A DNA stretch of 64,000 nucleotides from Pelagibius sp. Alg239-R121 (GTDB lineage: Bacteria > Pseudomonadota > Alphaproteobacteria > Kiloniellales > Kiloniellaceae): assembly GCF_947331435.1 (NCBI RefSeq), contig NZ_CAMZOF010000003.1, forward strand, positions 1 to 64,000. Reading direction: 5' to 3'. Position numbers and translations under genes: made by a program. Below are positions 16,926-29,849 of the stretch, piece by piece (positions within the stretch are counted from its first letter, which is position 1; the number at the start of each line of letters is the position of its first letter). Below the pieces are notes generated by a model. The model made no database searches, was not told where the DNA came from, and was given only the letters and a program-made list of their open reading frames with translations.

Positions 16926-16982
16926 CCCGGGAGCCTCAGGGGGGCGGATAGACCGCTCCCCAATACATTGGAAGGACTCGCG

Positions 16983-17648
16983 ATGGACTATTCAAGATCG
17001 TTCGCCGATCGCATCGAAGAAACCCTGATGGCGGGCATTCTTGGGGCTATGACAGTGATCACCTTCGCCAACGTCGTGGCGCGCTATGCGTTCAATTCAA
17101 ACATTCTTTGGGCGCTCGAGCTGACCGTCTTCATGTTCGGTTGGCTGGTGCTTCTTGGTGCGTCCTACGCAGTCAAGAAAGGCGCGCATCTGGGCGTCGA
17201 TATCATTGTGAATATGCTGAACGAGGGGCCCCGGCGGCTAATGGCACTGGTTGCCGTCGCGCTTTGCCTTGTATTTACGTTTCTCATGCTGAAGGGCGCC
17301 TGGGATTACTGGGCGAACTTCGCCAACCTTCCCGGCACTGATGGCCGCTGGTTCCCGCTCGGATTCGAAGAAAAGTTTCGCGGCAAGGGATGGTATGAAG
17401 TCGAAAGCGTCTTCATGCCGGAAGCTCTGCAGTGGATGGCGGATGTCTTCAACGAAGGCGAGCGATACGAAAACATCCCGCGCCTGATCCCCTATTCGGT
17501 CATTCCGGTCGCGATGGCGCTGATGCTGTTCCGCTTCATTCAGGTAGCGGTGCGGATCTGGACCGGCGAACTTGACCGGCTAGTTGCCAGCCACGAGGTC
17601 GAAGACGAGCTTGCAGAAATCGAAGCGCAGCAAGGGAGGGCGTCATAA
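16983..17648 (+). CDS. dctQ: TRAP transporter small permease DctQ
   Basis: A 221-residue membrane protein with four hydrophobic helices (about residues 20-40, 50-70, 90-110 and 175-195), typical of DctQ. Between helices 3 and 4 is a long soluble stretch (FANLPGTDGRWFPLG onward) that also occurs in C4-dicarboxylate DctQ proteins. The ATG at 16983 is chosen because GGAAGGA lies 6-7 bases upstream; the frame can extend to a TTG at 16968 that overlaps this site. The stop overlaps the dctM start (TAATG). Confidence 0.92.
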   Translation: MDYSRSFADRIEETLMAGILGAMTVITFANVVARYAFNSNILWALELTVFMFGWLVLLGASYAVKKGAHLGVDIIVNMLNEGPRRLMALVAVALCLVFTFLMLKGAWDYWANFANLPGTDGRWFPLGFEEKFRGKGWYEVESVFMPEALQWMADVFNEGERYENIPRLIPYSVIPVAMALMLFRFIQVAVRIWTGELDRLVASHEVEDELAEIEAQQGRAS

Positions 17649-19066
17649 TGGAAGTCGTCCTTCTGTTCTCGATGGTGATCGGCTTTCTGCTGATTGGTGT
17701 GCCGATTGCCGTGTCGCTTGGCCTTTCGTCTGTTCTGTTTCTGCTGTGGTTCTCCGACAGTTCGCTCGCCTCAGTGGCGCAGACGCTTTTCTCCGCGTTT
17801 GAGGGTCATTTCACGCTTCTGGCCATCCCGTTTTTCATTCTTGCATCCAGCTTCATGACAACCGGCGGCGTGGCGCGGCGGATCATCCGGTTTTCGATTG
17901 CCTGCGTCGGGCATTTTCCGGGCGGTCTGGCCATTGCGGGTGTCTTCGCCTGTATGATGTTCGCGGCCCTTTCAGGGTCGTCGCCCGCAACTGTTGTGGC
18001 GATCGGCTCGATCGTGATCGCCGGCATGCGGCAAGTCGGATACACCAAAGAATTCGCCGCCGGCGTTATCTGTAACGCAGGCACGTTGGGCATTCTCATC
18101 CCTCCATCCATCGTGATGGTCGTCTACGCCGCCTCGGTCGAAGTTTCTGTGGGCCGAATGTTCCTTGCTGGCGTGATCCCCGGTCTTCTGGCCGGTTTCA
18201 TGCTGATGGTGACGATTTACGTCATGGCAAAGATCAAAGACCTGCCCAAAGGCGAATGGCAGGGCTGGGGCGAAGTTGCTACTTCGGGCCGCGAGGCGGG
18301 CTGGGGCCTGTTCCTGATCGTGATCATCCTCGGCGGCATCTATGCCGGTATTTTCACACCCACCGAAGCCGCCGCAGTCGCAGCCGTCTACGCGTTCTTC
18401 ATCGCGACATTTGTTTACAAAGACATGGGGCCACTCACCGAACCGCGGGCCAAAAGCCTTTCGGCTGCTGCATTGGTCGAAGGCGCGTCTGCGGGCGATA
18501 AATTGCGTCTTAGTCAAAAACCCTGGGCGCTTGTCTCGGCCTTTTTCCATCGCGACACTCAGCAGACGCTTTTCGAAGCCGGCAAACTGACCGTGACGCT
18601 TCTTTTCGTCATCGCCACGGCGCTGATCCTGAAACACGTCCTGACCGAAGAGCAGGTGCCCCAACAAGTCGCCAATGCTATGCTTTCTGCCGGATTCGGG
18701 CCGGTCATGTTCCTGATCGTTGTGAACGTGATCCTGCTGATTGGCGGTCAGTTCATGGAACCGTCGGGATTGCTCGTGATCGTCGCGCCACTGGTCTTTC
18801 CGATCGCCATAGAGCTGGGCATCGACCCGATCCATCTGGGCATCATTATGGTCGTCAATATGGAGATCGGGATGATCACTCCTCCGGTGGGCCTGAACCT
18901 GTTCGTGACATCTGGCGTCGCGGGTATGTCGATGATGAGCGTCGTCAGGGCCGCATTGCCGTTCCTGGCCGTGCTTTTCGTCTTCCTGATCATCGTGACC
19001 TACGTGCCGTGGATCTCGACTGTGCTGCCAAATGCGGTGATGGGGCCTGAAATCATTGTGAATTAG
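17648..19066 (+). CDS. dctM: TRAP transporter large permease DctM
   Basis: A 472-residue multi-spanning permease of the DctM/IT superfamily. It has LLAIPFFILASSFMTTGG, the FAALSGSSPATVVAIGSI segment, LGILIPPSIVMVVYA, and near the end GMITPPVGLNLFVTSG, all in their usual order. It catalyses the sodium-coupled transport step with DctQ, receiving substrate from DctP. It is longer than typical members (about 425-440) because of a soluble loop around residues 255-305. Translation is coupled to dctQ by a one-base overlap. It is the last gene of its operon; a terminal-repeat element follows within 35 bases. Confidence 0.93.
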   Translation: MEVVLLFSMVIGFLLIGVPIAVSLGLSSVLFLLWFSDSSLASVAQTLFSAFEGHFTLLAIPFFILASSFMTTGGVARRIIRFSIACVGHFPGGLAIAGVFACMMFAALSGSSPATVVAIGSIVIAGMRQVGYTKEFAAGVICNAGTLGILIPPSIVMVVYAASVEVSVGRMFLAGVIPGLLAGFMLMVTIYVMAKIKDLPKGEWQGWGEVATSGREAGWGLFLIVIILGGIYAGIFTPTEAAAVAAVYAFFIATFVYKDMGPLTEPRAKSLSAAALVEGASAGDKLRLSQKPWALVSAFFHRDTQQTLFEAGKLTVTLLFVIATALILKHVLTEEQVPQQVANAMLSAGFGPVMFLIVVNVILLIGGQFMEPSGLLVIVAPLVFPIAIELGIDPIHLGIIMVVNMEIGMITPPVGLNLFVTSGVAGMSMMSVVRAALPFLAVLFVFLIIVTYVPWISTVLPNAVMGPEIIVN

Positions 19067-21797: not shown

Positions 21798-22679
21798 ATG
21801 GCCCCAACTCCTGCCTCATCTCTTGCCGGATCTCTTGCTCCTGCCGCCGTCGACCGCTATCAGCGTGACGGTTTTCTGTTTCCGCTGAATGTCTTCGACG
21901 CCGCAGAAACGGCCCGGCACCGCGCCGCCATCGAGGCTCTGGAGGCCAGGGACGATCCCGCCTTGCCCCGTCCGCTGGGCCAGTACTTCAGGGTCAATGC
22001 GCACTATGTGCTGCCGCTGGCGGTGGAACTTGCCCTGACACCCAAGATCCTCGATATCGTGGGTTCGATCCTGGGGCCGGATTTACTGGTCTGGAGCTGC
22101 GAATTCTTCATCAAGGAAGCGGGCACGCCCAAGATCGTCTCCTGGCATCAGGACCTGACCTACTGGGGCCTGGGCGAGACGGACGGGGAGATGACCGCCT
22201 GGCTCGCCTTGTCGCCGGCGACCCCAAAATCCGGGTGCATGCGGTTTGTCGCCGGGTCGCACAGGAAACACATCCAGCCGCACAAAGACACCTTCAACGC
22301 CGACAATCTGCTGTCGCGCGGACAGGAGCTTGCGGTGGCGGTTGACGAAGCGGACGCCACGGACGTGGTTCTTGAACCGGGACAGATGTCGCTTCATCAT
22401 GGCCGCATGTTCCACGCGTCCGGCCCGAACCATTCGGACGACCGGAGGATCGGCGTTGCGATCCGTTACGTCACCCCCGCCGTCCGCCAGATTGTCGGCA
22501 AGCGCGACTACGCCATGCTGGCGCGTGGAATGGACCGGGACCGGAACTGGATCAACGTCGCGCCCCCAGGCGGGAACTTTGAGCCGGCGGCTCTGGCACG
22601 TTATGAAACCATTCTTGCCGATCAGACCGAGGCTCTGTCGGCAGGGGCGGCGCAGCCGGTCGGACTCTATGCGACCTAA
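21798..22679 (+). CDS. PhyH-family Fe(II)/2OG dioxygenase, PhnY-like
   Basis: A 293-residue dioxygenase of the phytanoyl-CoA hydroxylase family. The iron ligands are visible as His-Gln-Asp in SWHQDLTYWG and the distal His in FHASGPNHSDDRR, with the 2-oxoglutarate-binding Arg a few residues later (DRRIGVAIRY). TAWLALSPATPKSGCMRFV and EPGQMSLHHGRMFH are the middle family blocks. PhnY, which hydroxylates 2-aminoethylphosphonate, belongs to this branch and shares these blocks in memory. It is immediately followed by an HD-domain gene with the metal-ligand pattern of PhnZ, the enzyme that completes C-P cleavage. No phosphonate transporter is seen here, so the substrate remains open. GGAG lies nine bases before the ATG. 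Confidence 0.87.
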   Translation: MAPTPASSLAGSLAPAAVDRYQRDGFLFPLNVFDAAETARHRAAIEALEARDDPALPRPLGQYFRVNAHYVLPLAVELALTPKILDIVGSILGPDLLVWSCEFFIKEAGTPKIVSWHQDLTYWGLGETDGEMTAWLALSPATPKSGCMRFVAGSHRKHIQPHKDTFNADNLLSRGQELAVAVDEADATDVVLEPGQMSLHHGRMFHASGPNHSDDRRIGVAIRYVTPAVRQIVGKRDYAMLARGMDRDRNWINVAPPGGNFEPAALARYETILADQTEALSAGAAQPVGLYAT

Positions 22680-24213: not shown

Positions 24214-24741
24214 TTACGACAGTGCGCCTTCGTGTTCCAGCAGCCAGCGCTTGCGTTTCAGCCCGCCGGCATAGCCCGTCAGCTTACCGGTACTGCCGAT
24301 AAGACGATGACAGGGGACCACGATCGATAAGGGATTCCGGCCATTGGCAGCACCGACCGCGCGCGGTGCGTCGGGGCGCTTGAGTTTCTTCGCCATTTCG
24401 CCGTATTGCCAGGTCTGGCCGGCCGGAATCGTACGCAGCCGCTGCCAGACCTGCTGTTGAAAGCTGGTGCCGCCACTGTCGATTGGAAGACTGTCGATCG
24501 CGGCCAAGTCGCCGTCGAAGTAAGCCTCCAGTTGTTTGTGGTAGCCGCCGGGGATCTTGGTGAGACGCACGTCGTATTGCGCAAACCGGGCCTTTAGGTT
24601 CTTGAGCAGGCGGTCGGCGCAGTCGTCGAATTCGACCGCGCAGAGGCCGTGCGCCGGACCTGTTTCAGGCTTGCCGTCCCGGGCCACCAGGACGACACGG
24701 CCGATAGGCGAAGGGATTTCATCGATCAGGAGAGTGACCAC
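24214..24741 (-). CDS. ogt: O6-methylguanine-DNA methyltransferase (Ogt type)
   Basis: A 175-residue DNA repair protein that transfers alkyl groups from O6-alkylguanine to its own cysteine. The active-site block IVVPCHRLIGSTGKLTGYA has the acceptor Cys in PCHR, and the helix-turn-helix block QQVWQRLRTIPAGQTWQYGE is also clear. There is no Ada-type N-terminal metal domain. I place the start at a GTG (24741) that precedes LLIDEIPSPIG closely, as in other Ogt proteins; a TTG further upstream gives an unusual charged lead. It stands alone between the methyltransferase gene and the marR gene. Confidence 0.92.
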   Translation of the reverse strand: MVTLLIDEIPSPIGRVVLVARDGKPETGPAHGLCAVEFDDCADRLLKNLKARFAQYDVRLTKIPGGYHKQLEAYFDGDLAAIDSLPIDSGGTSFQQQVWQRLRTIPAGQTWQYGEMAKKLKRPDAPRAVGAANGRNPLSIVVPCHRLIGSTGKLTGYAGGLKRKRWLLEHEGALS

Positions 24742-24908
24742 GGCAGCTCTGCGTCCTTTTCCATCGGTTTGGCCTTTCCCCGTTCCGGGCAATGAAGCCA
24801 GGGAGTTTCGATCTCAATAAGCGTTGAATCAAGCGGCAGGGGATAAGCCACCGGAGAACAATAGATTGGCGATGCACGAACCGCTGGCCGGAAGCGGCTG
24901 TCATAAGG

Positions 24909-24927
24909 TAATTGACAATGTCAACTA
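24909..24927. promoter_or_regulatory. Candidate MarR operator palindrome
   Basis: TAATTGACAATGTCAACTA is a near-perfect inverted repeat (TTGAC, three-base centre, GTCAA, with TA on both flanks). It is about 100 bases upstream of marR and within the only upstream space of the marR-dehalogenase pair. MarR proteins typically bind palindromes of this length. Functional assignment is inference. Confidence 0.6.
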
Positions 24928-25023: not shown

Positions 25024-25482
25024 ATGGACCAAAAAGCGCTCTCTTACAAACTGCGAGATGGATTGGGTTACCGGGTGTCGCGCCTCGCCCGTGTGATGGA
25101 ACGCGACTTCGAGCGTCGGCTTGCCGGTTTGGGCATCACCCGTCTGATGTGGTGTGTTCTGCCCACTGTGGGGTTGGAAAACATCGAGCGGCCGTCCGAT
25201 ATCGCCGAGCACATTGGCGTCGACCGGACGGCCCTTTCACGGGTCCTGCGCGAAATGGAAGCCAAGGACCTGGTGCGGCGTGCGCGGGATGACAGCGATG
25301 GACGGTCAACGCGCGTAAGTCTGACCAGGAAGGGGCGGCGTTGCCTCGATGGTGCCTTGCCGCAATCCCAGGGGACGACCAACCATTTCGGCGGCAAACT
25401 GAATTGCCGGGAAGTCGAAATTCTCCATCGCCTGATCGATAAACTGCTTTCCGGTGAAGAGGGCGCGCTTCCCGGAATCTAG
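25024..25482 (+). CDS. MarR-family regulator beside reductive dehalogenase
   Basis: A 152-residue winged-helix regulator. DIAEHIGVDRTALSRVLREME is the helix-turn-helix and RRARDDSDGRSTRVSLTRKG is the beta-wing with the DxRS signature; the flanking helices form the dimer interface. MarR proteins often sense aromatic acids or phenols. The next gene, about 90 bases downstream in the same direction, is a catabolic reductive dehalogenase, whose known substrates are halogenated phenols and hydroxybenzoates; direct regulation by the substrate is likely. Confidence 0.92.
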   Translation: MDQKALSYKLRDGLGYRVSRLARVMERDFERRLAGLGITRLMWCVLPTVGLENIERPSDIAEHIGVDRTALSRVLREMEAKDLVRRARDDSDGRSTRVSLTRKGRRCLDGALPQSQGTTNHFGGKLNCREVEILHRLIDKLLSGEEGALPGI

Positions 25483-25571
25483 AGTCGGATTCACGGTTTT
25501 TACCAAAACAGTGAAAAACGATCTGCCTCAGACTCTGGAACGCGGGCAGGTGACACGAAGGGATGAAAAGC

Positions 25572-28500
25572 ATGCGGTTGTTTTCCTACAAGAACAGGCC
25601 GGTCCATCTGGGACCTTATCCCTTGGAGCGCCTGAAACGGCAGTCGGAAATGCCGGACCTTGCCGATGTCCCGGTTATGCAGCAGCTCGCGTTTCTCGAT
25701 GCCGATAACCCTGAGAGTCTGTCCAACCCCATGGCCCTCTTTATCGGGATGCTCGATGCCATACGGGACGGATCGATTGCAGTGAACCGCTCCGAGATTC
25801 CGAGCGAGCCGGAGGCGCGCAGCGATCATCTCAAGGCGGCCGGTTATTATTTCGATGCGACCCAGGCCGGCATCTGCAAACTCCCCGCGGCGGCGTTCCT
25901 CGCGCAGCCTTTTCGCAATCCGGTTCTGGATCAACTGGTTGCTCAGCTGGAGGGCAGCCAGCCCAAGACCTTAGCCTCCGGCATTGACGTGGTGATGGCC
26001 GACGTGAAGGAATCCGCCAAGGCGGTACCTGCACCGATTGACCATCACAGCTATGCGATTGTCTATCTGGTCGAGCATCCGCGAGATCCCGATCCACAGG
26101 AAGCAGGATCGGACTGGATTACCGGAACCTTGGCACAACGCTCTGCCGTGCGGGCGGCCGAGACAGCCGTGGTTCTCGCGAACTATCTCCGTATTCTGGG
26201 GTTTGAGGCGCGGGCGCATACAGCCAGTTCCTCGGACGTGGATTTGGGCAAGCTCGCCCTTTCGGCCGGCTTAGTGGAAAAGCGGACCGGTGAAGAAGGA
26301 TCGGTCACGTTGGTAAACCCCTACGTCGGGGCACGCTATAGCCTGGCGGCAATCAGTACCACCCTCGAACTGGCCCCCGACGCTCCCTTGGCGCCGCGTG
26401 GTCTTGCCGGCCGCTGGCGTTCCCACGGACCGCGATGGTGGCTTGGCAAAGGGACCTTTAAGAGTGCTTTCAACCGAACGCCCTATGACCACCGACCCTT
26501 TGCCAAGGGGGCCTTGCCCTTCGAAAAGATCAAGCAGCAGGACGAGCCCACCACCTTTATCGATGCCGAACGTATTCCGCGCGTGCCTAAACGCACAGAC
26601 ATGTTTGCGCGCGCCCTCTTTGGCGATATGGGCAAGGTGGTGCAGGAGGGATCGAAGAACGGCTACTACGTTCTGAAAAATCCCATGGGTTATTGCTCCC
26701 GCCGCGCGCTGGGCGCATTGATCCTGTTGCAGGATGGAGAACCCGCCGTTGAGATCGCCGAAAGCGCGAAGGACCCGCAACGCAATGCCGACAACGTCAA
26801 GGCCTCCCTTTACTACCTCGGCGCTGATGCGGTCGGGCTCTCGCCCGCACCGGATTGGGTCTATTACTCGCACGATGCCGCCGGCAACGAATTGGCGCCT
26901 TACCACAAGAATGCCATCTCGATCCTGATCGACCAGGGGCACGAGACCATGGATGCGACCAGCGGCGACGACTGGATCTCCGCGGCGCAATCCATGCGCG
27001 CCTATCTGCGTTCTTCGTTGATCGGCGGGATCGTGGCTGAACAGATCCGGCGGTTGGGATATGGCGCGCGGGTGCACTCGGTGCTGGACGGCGAAGTGTT
27101 GCAGCCGCCACTGCTGCTGCTGTCGGGTCTGGGAGAGGTTAGCCGGATCGGCGAGGTGATTCTCAATCCCTATCTGGGACCCAGATTGAAGTCGGGTGTG
27201 GTCACGACCGACATGCCTTTCACCTATGACAAACCGATCAATTTCGGCATGCAGACCTTTTGCGGGAATTGCAATAAGTGCGCCCGTGAGTGCCCGGCCG
27301 GGGCCATCACTGCCGGCCCCAAGGTCATGTTCAACGGTTACGAAATCTGGAAGTCGGATTCCGAGCGTTGCGCCCGCTACCGTATTACCAACCTGCTGGG
27401 CAGCATGTGCGGCCGCTGTATGAAAACCTGCCCCTGGAACCTGGAGGGGCTTTTCAAGGAGACGCCGTTCCGCTGGCTGGCCATGCATTATCCCAAGGCC
27501 GCCAAATGGCTTGCGAAGCTCGACGATAAGGTCGGGAACGGTCAGATCAACCCGGTGAAGAAATGGTGGTGGGATCTGGAACTGCAGCCCGACGGGCGCT
27601 ACATCCCCGCACAGGAAACCAATGCCCGGGCGCTGAGCCTCGATCTGGACCTCAAACACGAAGATCAAACGCTGGCGGTCTACCCGGCGCATCTCGCGCC
27701 GCCGCCCTATCCCGTGCCTTTTCCAATGGACCGGGAAGCAGGTCTGGAGGCCTTTCAGAACCTGCTCAGCCCTGATGAGCACCAGGCGCGGTTGGCCAGG
27801 GGGGAGACCGATGGATTGGTGCCGCAATTCCAGCTGCCCGAGGGGCCGCCGCCGGTCATCCCGGTCAAGGTGTCGAAAAAGCAGGATATGGCTGAGAACA
27901 TTGCGCGCTACGAATTTAGCGCGTCCGAGGGTTCGGAGTTGCCGAAGTTCGAGGCCGGTGCGCACATCGACGTCGTCGTGGCGCCCGAGTATTTCCGCCA
28001 ATACAGTCTCGCCGGCGATCCTGCGGATCGCTCCAAATATGTGGTTGGCGTGTTGCAGGAGGAGGATGGGCGCGGTGGCTCAAAGCTCATGCACCGGATT
28101 TTCGAGGAAGGGCGAAGGGTCTTCATCTCACCGCCGCGTAACCACTTTCCATTGGCGGAAGAGGCGCAAAGATCCCTTCTCGTCGGCGGCGGGATCGGCG
28201 TGACGCCTTTGATCGCGATGGCACATGAACTGCATGCAAAGGGAGCCGCTTTCGAGTTGATCTACTGTGCGCATCAGCGTGAAACGGCCGGCTTCATCGA
28301 GGATCTCGAAACAGCGCCCTGGAAAGACCGCGTCCGTTTCTGCTTCTCTACCGAGGGCAATCGCGCGGACCTGGACAGTCTGCTGGCCGGATACAACACG
28401 GGTGATCAGCTCTATACCTGTGGCCCCTCAAACTTCATGGATGCGGTTTTTGCGGCGGCGGACGGGAACGACTGGCCCGAGGATGCGCTTCATCGTGAGT

Positions 28501-28802
28501 ACTTTTCGGTTCCTGAAGACGCCGAGTACGAAAATCACGACTTCACAATCCGGCTGGCTAAAGACGGCCGGAGTTTCGCGGTGCCGGCGGAGAAAACCAT
28601 TACGGATGTCCTCGGAGAGGCAGGCATTCATGTCGACGTGAAGTGCTCGGAAGGCATCTGCGGAGTCTGTGCCGCGCGCTATATTTCGGGCGAAGTTGAA
28701 CATCGCGATTTTGTCCTGGGAAAAAAGGAGCGCGCGGAAAAAATGATGACCTGCTGCTCCCGTGCCCGGACGGCTGGAAGCGAAGTCATCTTGGATCTTT
28801 GA
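25572..28802 (+). CDS. Self-sufficient reductive dehalogenase (RdhA-reductase fusion)
   Basis: A 1076-residue cytoplasmic enzyme with a B12-type RdhA module fused to its own reductase, as in BhbA of aerobic bacteria. Residues 1 to about 550 form the cobalamin half and contain two related segments (DWITGTL...FEARAH at 181-216 and DWISAAQ...YGARVH at 467-502). Two [4Fe-4S] clusters follow: Cys564, 567, 570, 574 (CGNCNKCARECP) and Cys600, 613, 616, 620. From about 760 is a phthalate-dioxygenase-reductase-like part: RQYSL flavin motif (809-813), GGGIGVTP nucleotide motif (872-879), CGP (950), and a plant-type [2Fe-2S] domain with Cys1025, 1030, 1033 and 1061 or 1062. No Tat signal and no RdhB partner, so it is catabolic rather than respiratory, fed by NAD(P)H. 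GAAGGG nine bases upstream picks the ATG at 25572 over 25563. Confidence 0.93.
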   Translation: MRLFSYKNRPVHLGPYPLERLKRQSEMPDLADVPVMQQLAFLDADNPESLSNPMALFIGMLDAIRDGSIAVNRSEIPSEPEARSDHLKAAGYYFDATQAGICKLPAAAFLAQPFRNPVLDQLVAQLEGSQPKTLASGIDVVMADVKESAKAVPAPIDHHSYAIVYLVEHPRDPDPQEAGSDWITGTLAQRSAVRAAETAVVLANYLRILGFEARAHTASSSDVDLGKLALSAGLVEKRTGEEGSVTLVNPYVGARYSLAAISTTLELAPDAPLAPRGLAGRWRSHGPRWWLGKGTFKSAFNRTPYDHRPFAKGALPFEKIKQQDEPTTFIDAERIPRVPKRTDMFARALFGDMGKVVQEGSKNGYYVLKNPMGYCSRRALGALILLQDGEPAVEIAESAKDPQRNADNVKASLYYLGADAVGLSPAPDWVYYSHDAAGNELAPYHKNAISILIDQGHETMDATSGDDWISAAQSMRAYLRSSLIGGIVAEQIRRLGYGARVHSVLDGEVLQPPLLLLSGLGEVSRIGEVILNPYLGPRLKSGVVTTDMPFTYDKPINFGMQTFCGNCNKCARECPAGAITAGPKVMFNGYEIWKSDSERCARYRITNLLGSMCGRCMKTCPWNLEGLFKETPFRWLAMHYPKAAKWLAKLDDKVGNGQINPVKKWWWDLELQPDGRYIPAQETNARALSLDLDLKHEDQTLAVYPAHLAPPPYPVPFPMDREAGLEAFQNLLSPDEHQARLARGETDGLVPQFQLPEGPPPVIPVKVSKKQDMAENIARYEFSASEGSELPKFEAGAHIDVVVAPEYFRQYSLAGDPADRSKYVVGVLQEEDGRGGSKLMHRIFEEGRRVFISPPRNHFPLAEEAQRSLLVGGGIGVTPLIAMAHELHAKGAAFELIYCAHQRETAGFIEDLETAPWKDRVRFCFSTEGNRADLDSLLAGYNTGDQLYTCGPSNFMDAVFAAADGNDWPEDALHREYFSVPEDAEYENHDFTIRLAKDGRSFAVPAEKTITDVLGEAGIHVDVKCSEGICGVCAARYISGEVEHRDFVLGKKERAEKMMTCCSRARTAGSEVILDL

Positions 28803-29195
28803 TGAGTTAAGTGCCCGCGTTTCAGGCCCTCCGATTGACTCCCGTAAGTTGGGTGCCGGTGCATTCGCTCTATCGAAAATACAACTATAAATAAACTCTG
28901 CTCTCAATTATAGATTTTTACTTACTTAATTCCCGAAAAAGAAAAAATCAATCTAAGATATCAAGTAATTCTCCGTTAAGTTGTGATTGATATTTCTTAA
29001 AAGTTATTGATAAAAAACAAGATAATGAAACATTTCCGACAAAACTGGATGCTGAGCGCCAGCGACTTTAACACTCTGTTAACCTTCTCAATGATAGTTA
29101 ATTAATCGCGTAAAACAACTAGAGAGGAGCATCTAACGCTCACCTCACCAAAAAAAGTACGCGCTTAATAAAACCATAGATAAGGAGTATGCATT
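28803..29195. other. AT-rich intergenic stretch
   Basis: The middle of this gap (about 28870-29130) is strikingly AT-rich compared with the flanking genes, with no coding frame. It holds the promoter region and a clear ribosome site (AAGGAG, 29182-29187) of the PEP-CTERM gene. The base composition suggests foreign origin or a curved promoter region. I cannot pick a convincing -35/-10 pair. Confidence 0.5.
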
Positions 29196-29849
29196 GTGAG
29201 GAAAATCTACTCGCTTGTGTTCGGCGGGGTGTTTGCCATGGCTACGATTGGCTTGCTCTCCCACGCGGCACAGGCTGCGGTAATCTTGAATACCTCCAAC
29301 GGCCAACTGATTGGTGCTCAAAACGTCGATGTTCAGGGAACGCTCTACGATGTGTCTTTTGTGGATGGTACCTGCATCGATATCTATTCGGGTTGCACTG
29401 ACGCTGCATCAAATTTCACCTTCACCGATTTCGACAGCGCGTTCGCGGCTGGTACAGCGCTTCTTGAACAAGTCTTTCTTGATACAGTCGAGGGCCTTTT
29501 CGGTTCCAGGACGGAACTAACACAGGGTTGCGAGAGTTTGGTCACATGCTTTTCAGTGATTCCTTACAGCCTCAGGCGTTCTGCCTTTGACGCAGTGGTC
29601 GCAGAAAATCTGAGTTCGGATGGTACAGAGCGTGTGTTCGTTTCGAACGCATCGCCAGCCTTTGACCTTACAATACTCGACAACAATACTTTTGCTGTTT
29701 TCTCGCTGGCTTCAGGTTCTCCAGCAGAGATTGACGAGCCATCAACGCTGCTCTTGTTCGGCGTTGCAATGCTCGCTCTGGGAACAGTTTGCCGTCGAAA
29801 ACAGCGTGCTGCTGAGCTTCGGCATCAAAACACGCAGGAAGCCTGCTAA
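29196..29849 (+). CDS. PEP-CTERM-sorted exported protein
   Basis: A 217-residue secreted protein starting at GTG (AAGGAG eight bases upstream). It has a signal peptide (SLVFGGVFAMATIGLLSHAA, cleavage after AQA) and near the end a PEP-CTERM tripartite tail: EPST, hydrophobic LLLFGVAMLALGTV, then CRRKQR. Exosortase removes such tails and the protein ends up at the surface or in the extracellular matrix. Five Cys in the mature part could form disulfides. Unusually, about 15 residues follow the basic cluster, whereas family members normally end within a few; the stop codon lies on the edge of a repeated palindrome. No exosortase or polysaccharide genes are nearby, and its function is unknown. Confidence 0.85.
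   Translation: MRKIYSLVFGGVFAMATIGLLSHAAQAAVILNTSNGQLIGAQNVDVQGTLYDVSFVDGTCIDIYSGCTDAASNFTFTDFDSAFAAGTALLEQVFLDTVEGLFGSRTELTQGCESLVTCFSVIPYSLRRSAFDAVVAENLSSDGTERVFVSNASPAFDLTILDNNTFAVFSLASGSPAEIDEPSTLLLFGVAMLALGTVCRRKQRAAELRHQNTQEAC

Follow-up and report, generated by a model that had tools for sequence, protein, structure and literature searches.

What does the fused gene at 25572-28802 encode, and does the MarR-family gene just upstream of it act as its switch? Both genes lie in the first 64,000 bases of contig C3 (bases 1-64000; hereafter the window) of the 8.0-Mb genome of Pelagibius sp. Alg239-R121, and a preliminary description of the locus had proposed a self-sufficient catabolic reductive dehalogenase (RdhA) under MarR control. 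Our analysis confirms the underlying observation and supports that interpretation. The architecture, catalytic residues, duplicated core, gene linkage and common palindrome described below are seen directly; from them, the product is very probably a soluble reductive dehalogenase that draws on NAD(P)H and depends on cobalamin, of the same kind as BhbA and JtRdhA, and is probably controlled by MarR through the palindrome. The enzyme kind itself is already known and characterized (BhbA, JtRdhA), and what is added here is the link to a regulator. The features concerned are as follows (PDOR, phthalate dioxygenase reductase).

24912-24924, no strand assigned: candidate MarR operator TTGACAATGTCAA, palindrome TTGACA-N-TGTCAA; sole TTGACNNNGTCAA match in the window, recurring in MarR-rdhA loci
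25024-25482, + strand: MarR-family regulator, 80 bp upstream of rdhA (Pfam PF01047, 38 bits against a cut-off of 24.6)
25572-28802, + strand: rdhA-PDOR fusion, predicted self-sufficient catabolic reductive dehalogenase (TIGR02486, NpRdhA, 2pia and Foldseek matches)
25626-26477, + strand: cobalamin-binding core, degenerate N-terminal copy at residues 22-305 (hhalign against the C-terminal copy)
26568-27443, + strand: cobalamin core predicted to be functional and to carry two [4Fe-4S] sites, residues 336-627 (RDH stretch 448-627, conserved residues)
27858-28799, + strand: PDOR-like part with flavin and NAD(P)H domains and a C-terminal [2Fe-2S] domain, residues 766-1079 (2pia, Fer2)

Architecture of the fused protein

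The longest open reading frame (ORF) covers 25563-28802 on the + strand (1079 amino acids), with a second in-frame ATG at 25572. Because a possible ribosome-binding site (GAAGGG, 25557-25562) leaves a spacing of 9 nt before 25572 but none before 25563, and because the printed NpRdhA chain begins correspondingly (MRLYS), 25572 appears the likelier start. Residues are counted here from 25563; the numbers of the preliminary description, which started at 25572, are 3 lower.

That one chain joins an RdhA to a flavin/NAD(P)H reductase and a [2Fe-2S] domain, as had been claimed, was borne out. The NCBIfam model RDH (TIGR02486) scored 195.5 bits, above its cut-off of 160.35. In the PDB, the best matches were to the characterized dehalogenase NpRdhA (6zxu, E 6.1e-164; 4ras, E 3e-163) over residues 161-745 with an N-terminal piece at 3-108, so that the first 550 residues, on which the earlier assignment had been made to depend, do carry RdhA matches. 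PDOR-type reductases followed over about residues 766-1079 (6kbh, E 2.5e-62; 2pia, E 5.4e-61, 766-1079), and then PceA (4uqu, E 1.7e-22). Pfam placed Fer2 at residues 1000-1068, with [2Fe-2S] cysteines at 1028/1033/1036 and 1064. An AlphaFold model built from 36 sequences reached a mean predicted local distance difference test (pLDDT) score of 79.4 and a predicted template modelling (pTM) score of 0.82, its low-confidence stretches (463-468, 524-533 and 580-599) lying near the active site and an iron-sulfur site. In a Foldseek search with this model, NpRdhA chains took the top 14 places, with E between 3.5e-58 and 6.4e-56 and TM-scores, normalized by target length, of 0.87-0.89; PDOR-like proteins came next.

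Active site and iron-sulfur clusters

Alignment of the active site, which the preliminary description had recommended, placed NpRdhA F291, A419, S422, M423, Y426, K488 and R552 opposite F348, A474, S477, M478, Y481, K543 and R607, all identical; the roles of these residues in NpRdhA are described in PMC7565698. The eight [4Fe-4S] cysteines are also in place, at 567/570/573/577 and 603/616/619/623 (previously given as 564-574 and 600/613/616/620), and two clusters are predicted from them. We compared 86 sequences, comprising the window, 80 loci kept of 464 relatives, one relative from a genus-level genome set and four plasmid loci. F348, S477, M478, Y481, K543, R607 and the first four cysteines were kept in 86 of 86, and the second-cluster cysteines 603, 616, 619 and 623 were invariant in a 41-sequence subset. 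One of the 86 (locus L097, genome G055) has a 1,128-amino-acid frame, but the idea of an N-terminal fusion there was dropped: since Pfam found only the ferredoxin part, the protein is best read as NpRdhA-like and unfused, the open frame upstream being due to chance.

At position 474 the window protein has Ala, as do its three congeners, Salinarimonas and NpRdhA; the rest of the 86 sequences have Val (68), Cys (8), Gly (3) or Ser (2). According to PMC7565698, the equivalent NpRdhA residue lines the pocket for a second halogen. A sharp substrate prediction from the pocket was given up, and Ala474 is at most suggestive of room for a second halogen.

A duplicated cobalamin-binding core

Two internal segments had been suspected of forming a repeat. 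Both (184-219 and 470-505 in the present numbering) fall inside a duplication aligned as residues 22-305 and 336-602. When residues 1-330 were compared with 331-760 by hhalign, 239 columns aligned with probability 99.7 and E 4.2e-26, against E 0.076-0.78 for eight column-shuffled controls and E 0.19 and 0.27 for two comparisons with the reductase part. The RDH model also matched the N-terminal half alone (25806-26390, E 8.8e-10). In this copy Ala195 stands opposite Tyr481 and Ser260 opposite Lys543, and there is no cysteine cluster. Judged from these alignments, the suspected repeat is a true domain duplication, and the N-terminal module is degenerate, as the Tyr, Lys and cysteines are absent. 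A vestigial duplication in catabolic RdhAs has already been described (PMC10463259); it is a known feature of these enzymes and not new.

A MarR gene recurs upstream of fused rdhA

The preliminary description had pointed to the MarR gene upstream, and the link drawn from its adjacency is now backed by recurrent linkage and a shared palindrome. MarR relatives stand directly upstream in five of the 80 loci (the three congeners, L043 and L063), and an Aminobacter plasmid carries, by annotation, a MarR gene 33 bp upstream of its fused rdhA. A search of 72,556 plasmid records with the window MarR (E <=1e-10) returned three matches, all on plasmids with a fused rdhA. One is the Aminobacter gene just mentioned. 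In Jannaschia MarR adjoins rdhA and points away from it, and in Yoonia the two are separated by a TRAP transporter operon. This operon (L110, 6258-8987) points to uptake of an acidic substrate, and the MarR-rdhA distance in genome G521 is similar to that in Yoonia.

Linkage was then counted in 295 genomes of one other alphaproteobacterial family (that of genome G079), with MarR matches taken at E <=1e-12, rdhA matches at E <=1e-200 and contig ends not considered. There were 57 MarR matches in 55 genomes and 113 rdhA matches in 112, and 36 genomes had both (Fisher p 5.5e-6, not corrected for relatedness). Nineteen pairs shared a contig, every one with MarR on the upstream side of rdhA: 17 within 250 bp (3 of them divergent, the other 14 on the same strand), an eighteenth 2,957 bp away and the last at 106 kb. 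Thus 18 of the 57 MarR matches lay upstream of rdhA within 3 kb. MarR is a recurrent partner of fused rdhA, though most fused rdhA genes are without such a neighbour. No report of a MarR tied to a fused rdhA appeared in the literature searched, which is weak evidence of absence with most subscription papers outside reach; a text search of PMC10463259 gave no mention of MarR.

A palindrome recurring upstream of rdhA-linked MarR genes

In the 64-kb window TTGACNNNGTCAA has one match (0.11 expected), 112 bp before the MarR start. The palindrome aligns in the three congeners with one change, and the surrounding upstream DNA is less conserved. We scored upstream regions for TTGACANTGTCAA with at most two mismatches, using shuffles that keep base composition only, not dinucleotides. 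Upstream of rdhA-linked MarR genes, 10 of 18 regions in the first set matched (four of them from this genus) against 0.12 expected; for unlinked MarR genes 2 of 18 matched against 0.13 expected. Among rdhA genes without an adjacent MarR, 1 of 75 matched at up to two mismatches and none at up to one (no shuffled baseline). The counts omit L139, an unlinked locus interrupted by an internal stop, and three rdhA loci whose upstream DNA was too short.

Because the motif had first been seen in the first set, we also used a held-out set of ten, made up of seven further linked regions plus L110, L111 and L076. Four of the ten matched at two mismatches, against 0.1 expected. All same-strand regions in this set, four in number, were among the matches, whereas the six that are divergent or distant gave none, and neither did the one divergent case of the first set. 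MarR likely binds the palindrome at 24912-24924.

Distribution and neighbourhood of fused rdhA

The nearest named relative at the locus is Denitrobaculum tricleocarpae, whose RdhA is 87% identical. Across 58 genomes of the window's own and related genera, all four genomes of the genus had the fused gene and none of the 19 others of the family did; the one further match, from the same order, was an unfused NpRdhA-like gene. In a sample of 385 Alphaproteobacteria genomes, rdhA was found in nine, two of them from this genus; among the plasmid records, eight carried the fused gene over at least 80% of its length. This scattered distribution suggests horizontal transfer, including into this genus. 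A tree made by a quick method grouped the window protein with Aminobacter, Salinarimonas, Pseudovibrio and betaproteobacterial sequences (11 members, support 92); because the Aminobacter row was long-branched and several forks stayed open, we drew no donor from it.

A conserved catabolic operon was considered and rejected, as the 81 upstream neighbours were spread over many families (73 at E <=1e-5). The commonest among the families listed were MarR (6-7), FAD oxidoreductase (5), LuxR-type (5), TRAP large permease (4) and tricarboxylate receptor (4). These neighbours were picked by a simple longest-ORF rule and single picks may be wrong; an all-against-all clustering of neighbours was noisy (the main gene was lost in three loci) and was given little weight. 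Two relatives were unusual: in Salinarimonas rosea (L013, 9671-14926, - strand) a 1,751-codon open frame runs antisense to rdhA, probably a by-product of high GC content, and a fused rdhA match at G704:C1:2007668-2009680 has an in-frame TGA and covers residues 406-1077 only, probably as a result of decay.

Proposed function and mechanism

By analogy with its relatives, the protein would catalyze NAD(P)H-dependent dehalogenation of ortho-halophenols, and the substrate class named in the preliminary description, a halogenated phenol or hydroxybenzoate, is plausible. We infer the activity and the substrates (ortho-bromo- or ortho-iodophenols), as well as the direction of regulation, the inducer and the sensing of the enzyme's substrate by MarR. 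Judged by homology to NpRdhA and JtRdhA, a hydride would pass from NAD(P)H to flavin in the C-terminal reductase part, and single electrons would then reach base-off cobalamin by way of the [2Fe-2S] domain and both [4Fe-4S] clusters. S477, K543 and R607 would grip the phenolate of the substrate with its ortho halogen at cobalt, and Y481 would donate the proton that completes carbon-halogen cleavage. The hydroxyaryl compound set free could then feed into ordinary aromatic catabolism. Expression of rdhA is probably under the control of the adjoining MarR gene, whose product likely binds the palindrome and responds to the halogenated substrate, or to a related phenol, by release or some other change.

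The genome encodes a pobA-family protein (4-hydroxybenzoate 3-monooxygenase; 684.8 bits, cut-off 538.7) and CobN of aerobic B12 synthesis (1645 bits, cut-off 822). The cell could therefore handle both the cofactor and what dehalogenation of a halogenated 4-hydroxybenzoate would yield. A TRAP transporter in the window (DctQ and DctM, 16968-19063) was not counted as the uptake system because it lies about 6 kb from rdhA and the matched upstream families of the congeners differ.

Alternative explanations

Two other identities for the enzyme are highly improbable. QueG, a tRNA-modification enzyme, belongs to the same class III cobalamin family (PMC10463259), and its model (TIGR00276) matches the window protein weakly. 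That match falls far short of its cut-off (28.1 of 200 bits) while RDH exceeds its own, and neither the NpRdhA-type Tyr/Lys/Arg with a duplicated core nor the scattered occurrence in 9 of 385 genomes fits a QueG, or any other enzyme of tRNA modification, that carries an extra reductase. The preliminary description had itself named orthology to QueG alone as the outcome that would overturn it. An energy-conserving, respiratory dehalogenase, which would account for the RDH score above cut-off and which we rate just as low, is countered by the fused reductase, the duplicated core and two absences already remarked on in the preliminary description: there is no twin-arginine pair in the first 40 residues, judged by reading the sequence, and no RdhB-like small membrane partner downstream among the ORFs of at least 35 amino acids listed over 28700-29250. 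The sole + strand ORF ending between 28802 and 29196 is a 42-amino-acid frame overlapping the end of rdhA. A more serious contender, which we regard as possible although rather unlikely, is a self-sufficient RDH-fold enzyme that serves detoxification or halogen scavenging of bromo- or iodophenols, or some other phenolic reduction, and not growth. It is favoured by the diversity of genes beside fused rdhA, where even the commonest family, MarR, makes up 6-7 of 81 upstream genes, and by the lack of catabolic genes directly beside rdhA in the window. TRAP or tricarboxylate transporter genes adjoin some relatives, however, and one plasmid relative lies near pobA and dioxygenase genes, which together favour a hydroxyaryl acid used as food.

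Several observations weigh against a regulated catabolic dehalogenase with a dedicated operator. There is no catabolic operon around rdhA in the window, and five pocket positions (M347, S364, Y369, V370 and V507) differ from F290, K307, F310, P311 and N452 of NpRdhA, so that NpRdhA substrates cannot be carried over, four of the five falling in gapped, less certain stretches of the alignment. In the 295 genomes, 95 of 113 fused rdhA genes have no listed MarR match beside them, 39 of 57 MarR matches are not near rdhA, and the family's best-scoring MarR match (47% identity, G578) is on another contig than its rdhA; in the 385-genome sample MarR (E <=1e-20) was found in two of the genomes, both of this genus, against nine with rdhA. 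Among linked regions, 8 of the 18 in the first set and 6 of the 10 held out differ from the palindrome by more than two mismatches; among unlinked MarR genes, 2 of 18 have it upstream within one mismatch. The unlinked majorities on both sides, together with other MarR-like genes in the 80 loci (eight of them 2.6-7.5 kb upstream and two 5.6-6.8 kb downstream), would suit a MarR that is a chance neighbour controlling something else. That this is so seems improbable, given that 17 of 57 MarR matches sit no more than 250 bp upstream of rdhA and an eighteenth 2,957 bp upstream, with none close downstream, that all three plasmid matches occur with fused rdhA, two of them directly adjacent, and that linked loci share the palindrome. 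One further form of MarR control, in which a dedicated switch with the operator TTGACA-N-TGTCAA has travelled with the self-sufficient enzyme across unrelated Alphaproteobacteria, as a portable sensor-plus-enzyme cassette for natural bromo- or iodophenolic acids in aerobes, we regard as an evenly balanced proposition.

Another copy of a known enzyme kind changes little by itself. A MarR with a predicted operator makes the natural substrate testable, as it could be used to screen halogenated phenols; in the alphaproteobacterial family sampled, the enzyme is carried by 112 of 295 genomes. The MarR-operator pair could also serve as a halophenol biosensor.

Neighbouring genes and other family members in the genome

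Besides MarR, the genes nearest to rdhA encode a methyltransferase of DNA repair, an EamA transporter and a protein of PEP-CTERM-like type. The O6-methylguanine-DNA methyltransferase gene (24214-24792, - strand) is divergent from MarR and has a homologue in the same place in the three congeners; the PEP-CTERM-like protein (217 amino acids; 19.7 bits, below the cut-off of 20.7) is encoded next downstream. Further away, a PhyH-family protein (21798-22679, + strand) shows weak likeness to chlorinating enzymes (75 against 226 bits), and its WHQD (HxD motif) presumably marks a hydroxylase rather than a halogenase. Two similar 2-oxoglutarate (2OG)-Fe(II) oxygenase genes (PF13759; 32452-33198 and 34171-34902, + strand) have an opposite-strand ORF between them. 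Rfam gave no match at the gathering threshold to a cobalamin riboswitch or other known RNA in the whole window, and ARAGORN no tRNA gene that could mark an integration site.

A second RDH-family protein, unfused, is encoded on contig C7 (171.5 bits, cut-off 160.35). This protein of about 430-449 amino acids (L089, G000 C7:350843-354436, ORF 910-2199) lies between iolB and a GcvT-like gene. It keeps the Tyr, but the Lys and Arg of the fused enzyme are replaced by Arg and Trp. In its cluster motifs, CNICTKCADQCP and CAICMRVCP, it resembles the marine debrominase Ros_A3X954 (CDICTKCADACP and CAICMRVCP; PMC13101508). A 329-amino-acid relative (L091, G000 C8:99629-103141, ORF 1096-2085) scored below both cut-offs (RDH 91 of 160 bits, QueG 47 of 200) and has Tyr and Arg at the catalytic positions; it is neither a clear dehalogenase nor a clear QueG.

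Comparison with known systems

The fused RdhA class, with NADPH-driven activity on bromo- and iodophenols, is described in PMC10463259. JtRdhA (Jhaorihella thermophila), the one fused enzyme that has been characterized in detail, has a duplicated core, a PDOR-like fusion, no twin-arginine signal and the same catalytic residues as the window protein. It works aerobically on bromo- and iodophenols using NADPH at about 1:1, and the chlorinated compounds tested with it were inhibitors only (PMC10463259). The substrates of JtRdhA were measured; those of the window protein are predicted.

BhbA (Comamonas sp. 7D-2, plasmid pBHB, NC_021077, WP_015585978), to which the preliminary description had likened the enzyme, shares its architecture from end to end, the catalytic residues and the clusters at 52.5% identity. 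It differs in having Ser at position 474 instead of Ala and in adjoining protocatechuate 4,5-dioxygenase genes and part of a tripartite tricarboxylate transporter, and pBHB has no match to the window MarR at E <=1e-10. NpRdhA (Nitratireductor pacificus; PDB 4ras, 6zxu, 6zxx, 6zy0 and 6zy1) resembles the whole RdhA half in fold and active site, including Ala419/Ala474, but has no fused reductase and differs at the five pocket positions given above. PDOR itself (2pia) corresponds to residues 766-1079 with their C-terminal [2Fe-2S] domain and is a separate protein.

For the regulator, two published MarR proteins can be compared by description. Rdh2R of Dehalococcoides mccartyi is encoded beside dehalogenation genes and acts on rdh genes of an anaerobe (PMC6299228). 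BhbR2 of Pigmentiphaga kullae H8 is a MarR encoded by halo-hydroxybenzoate genes, and binds a palindrome of similar type, TTGATT-N5-AATCAA; unlike the window MarR, which is predicted to act on a fused dehalogenase gene, BhbR2 activates an operon with a hydroxylase (PMC12016517).

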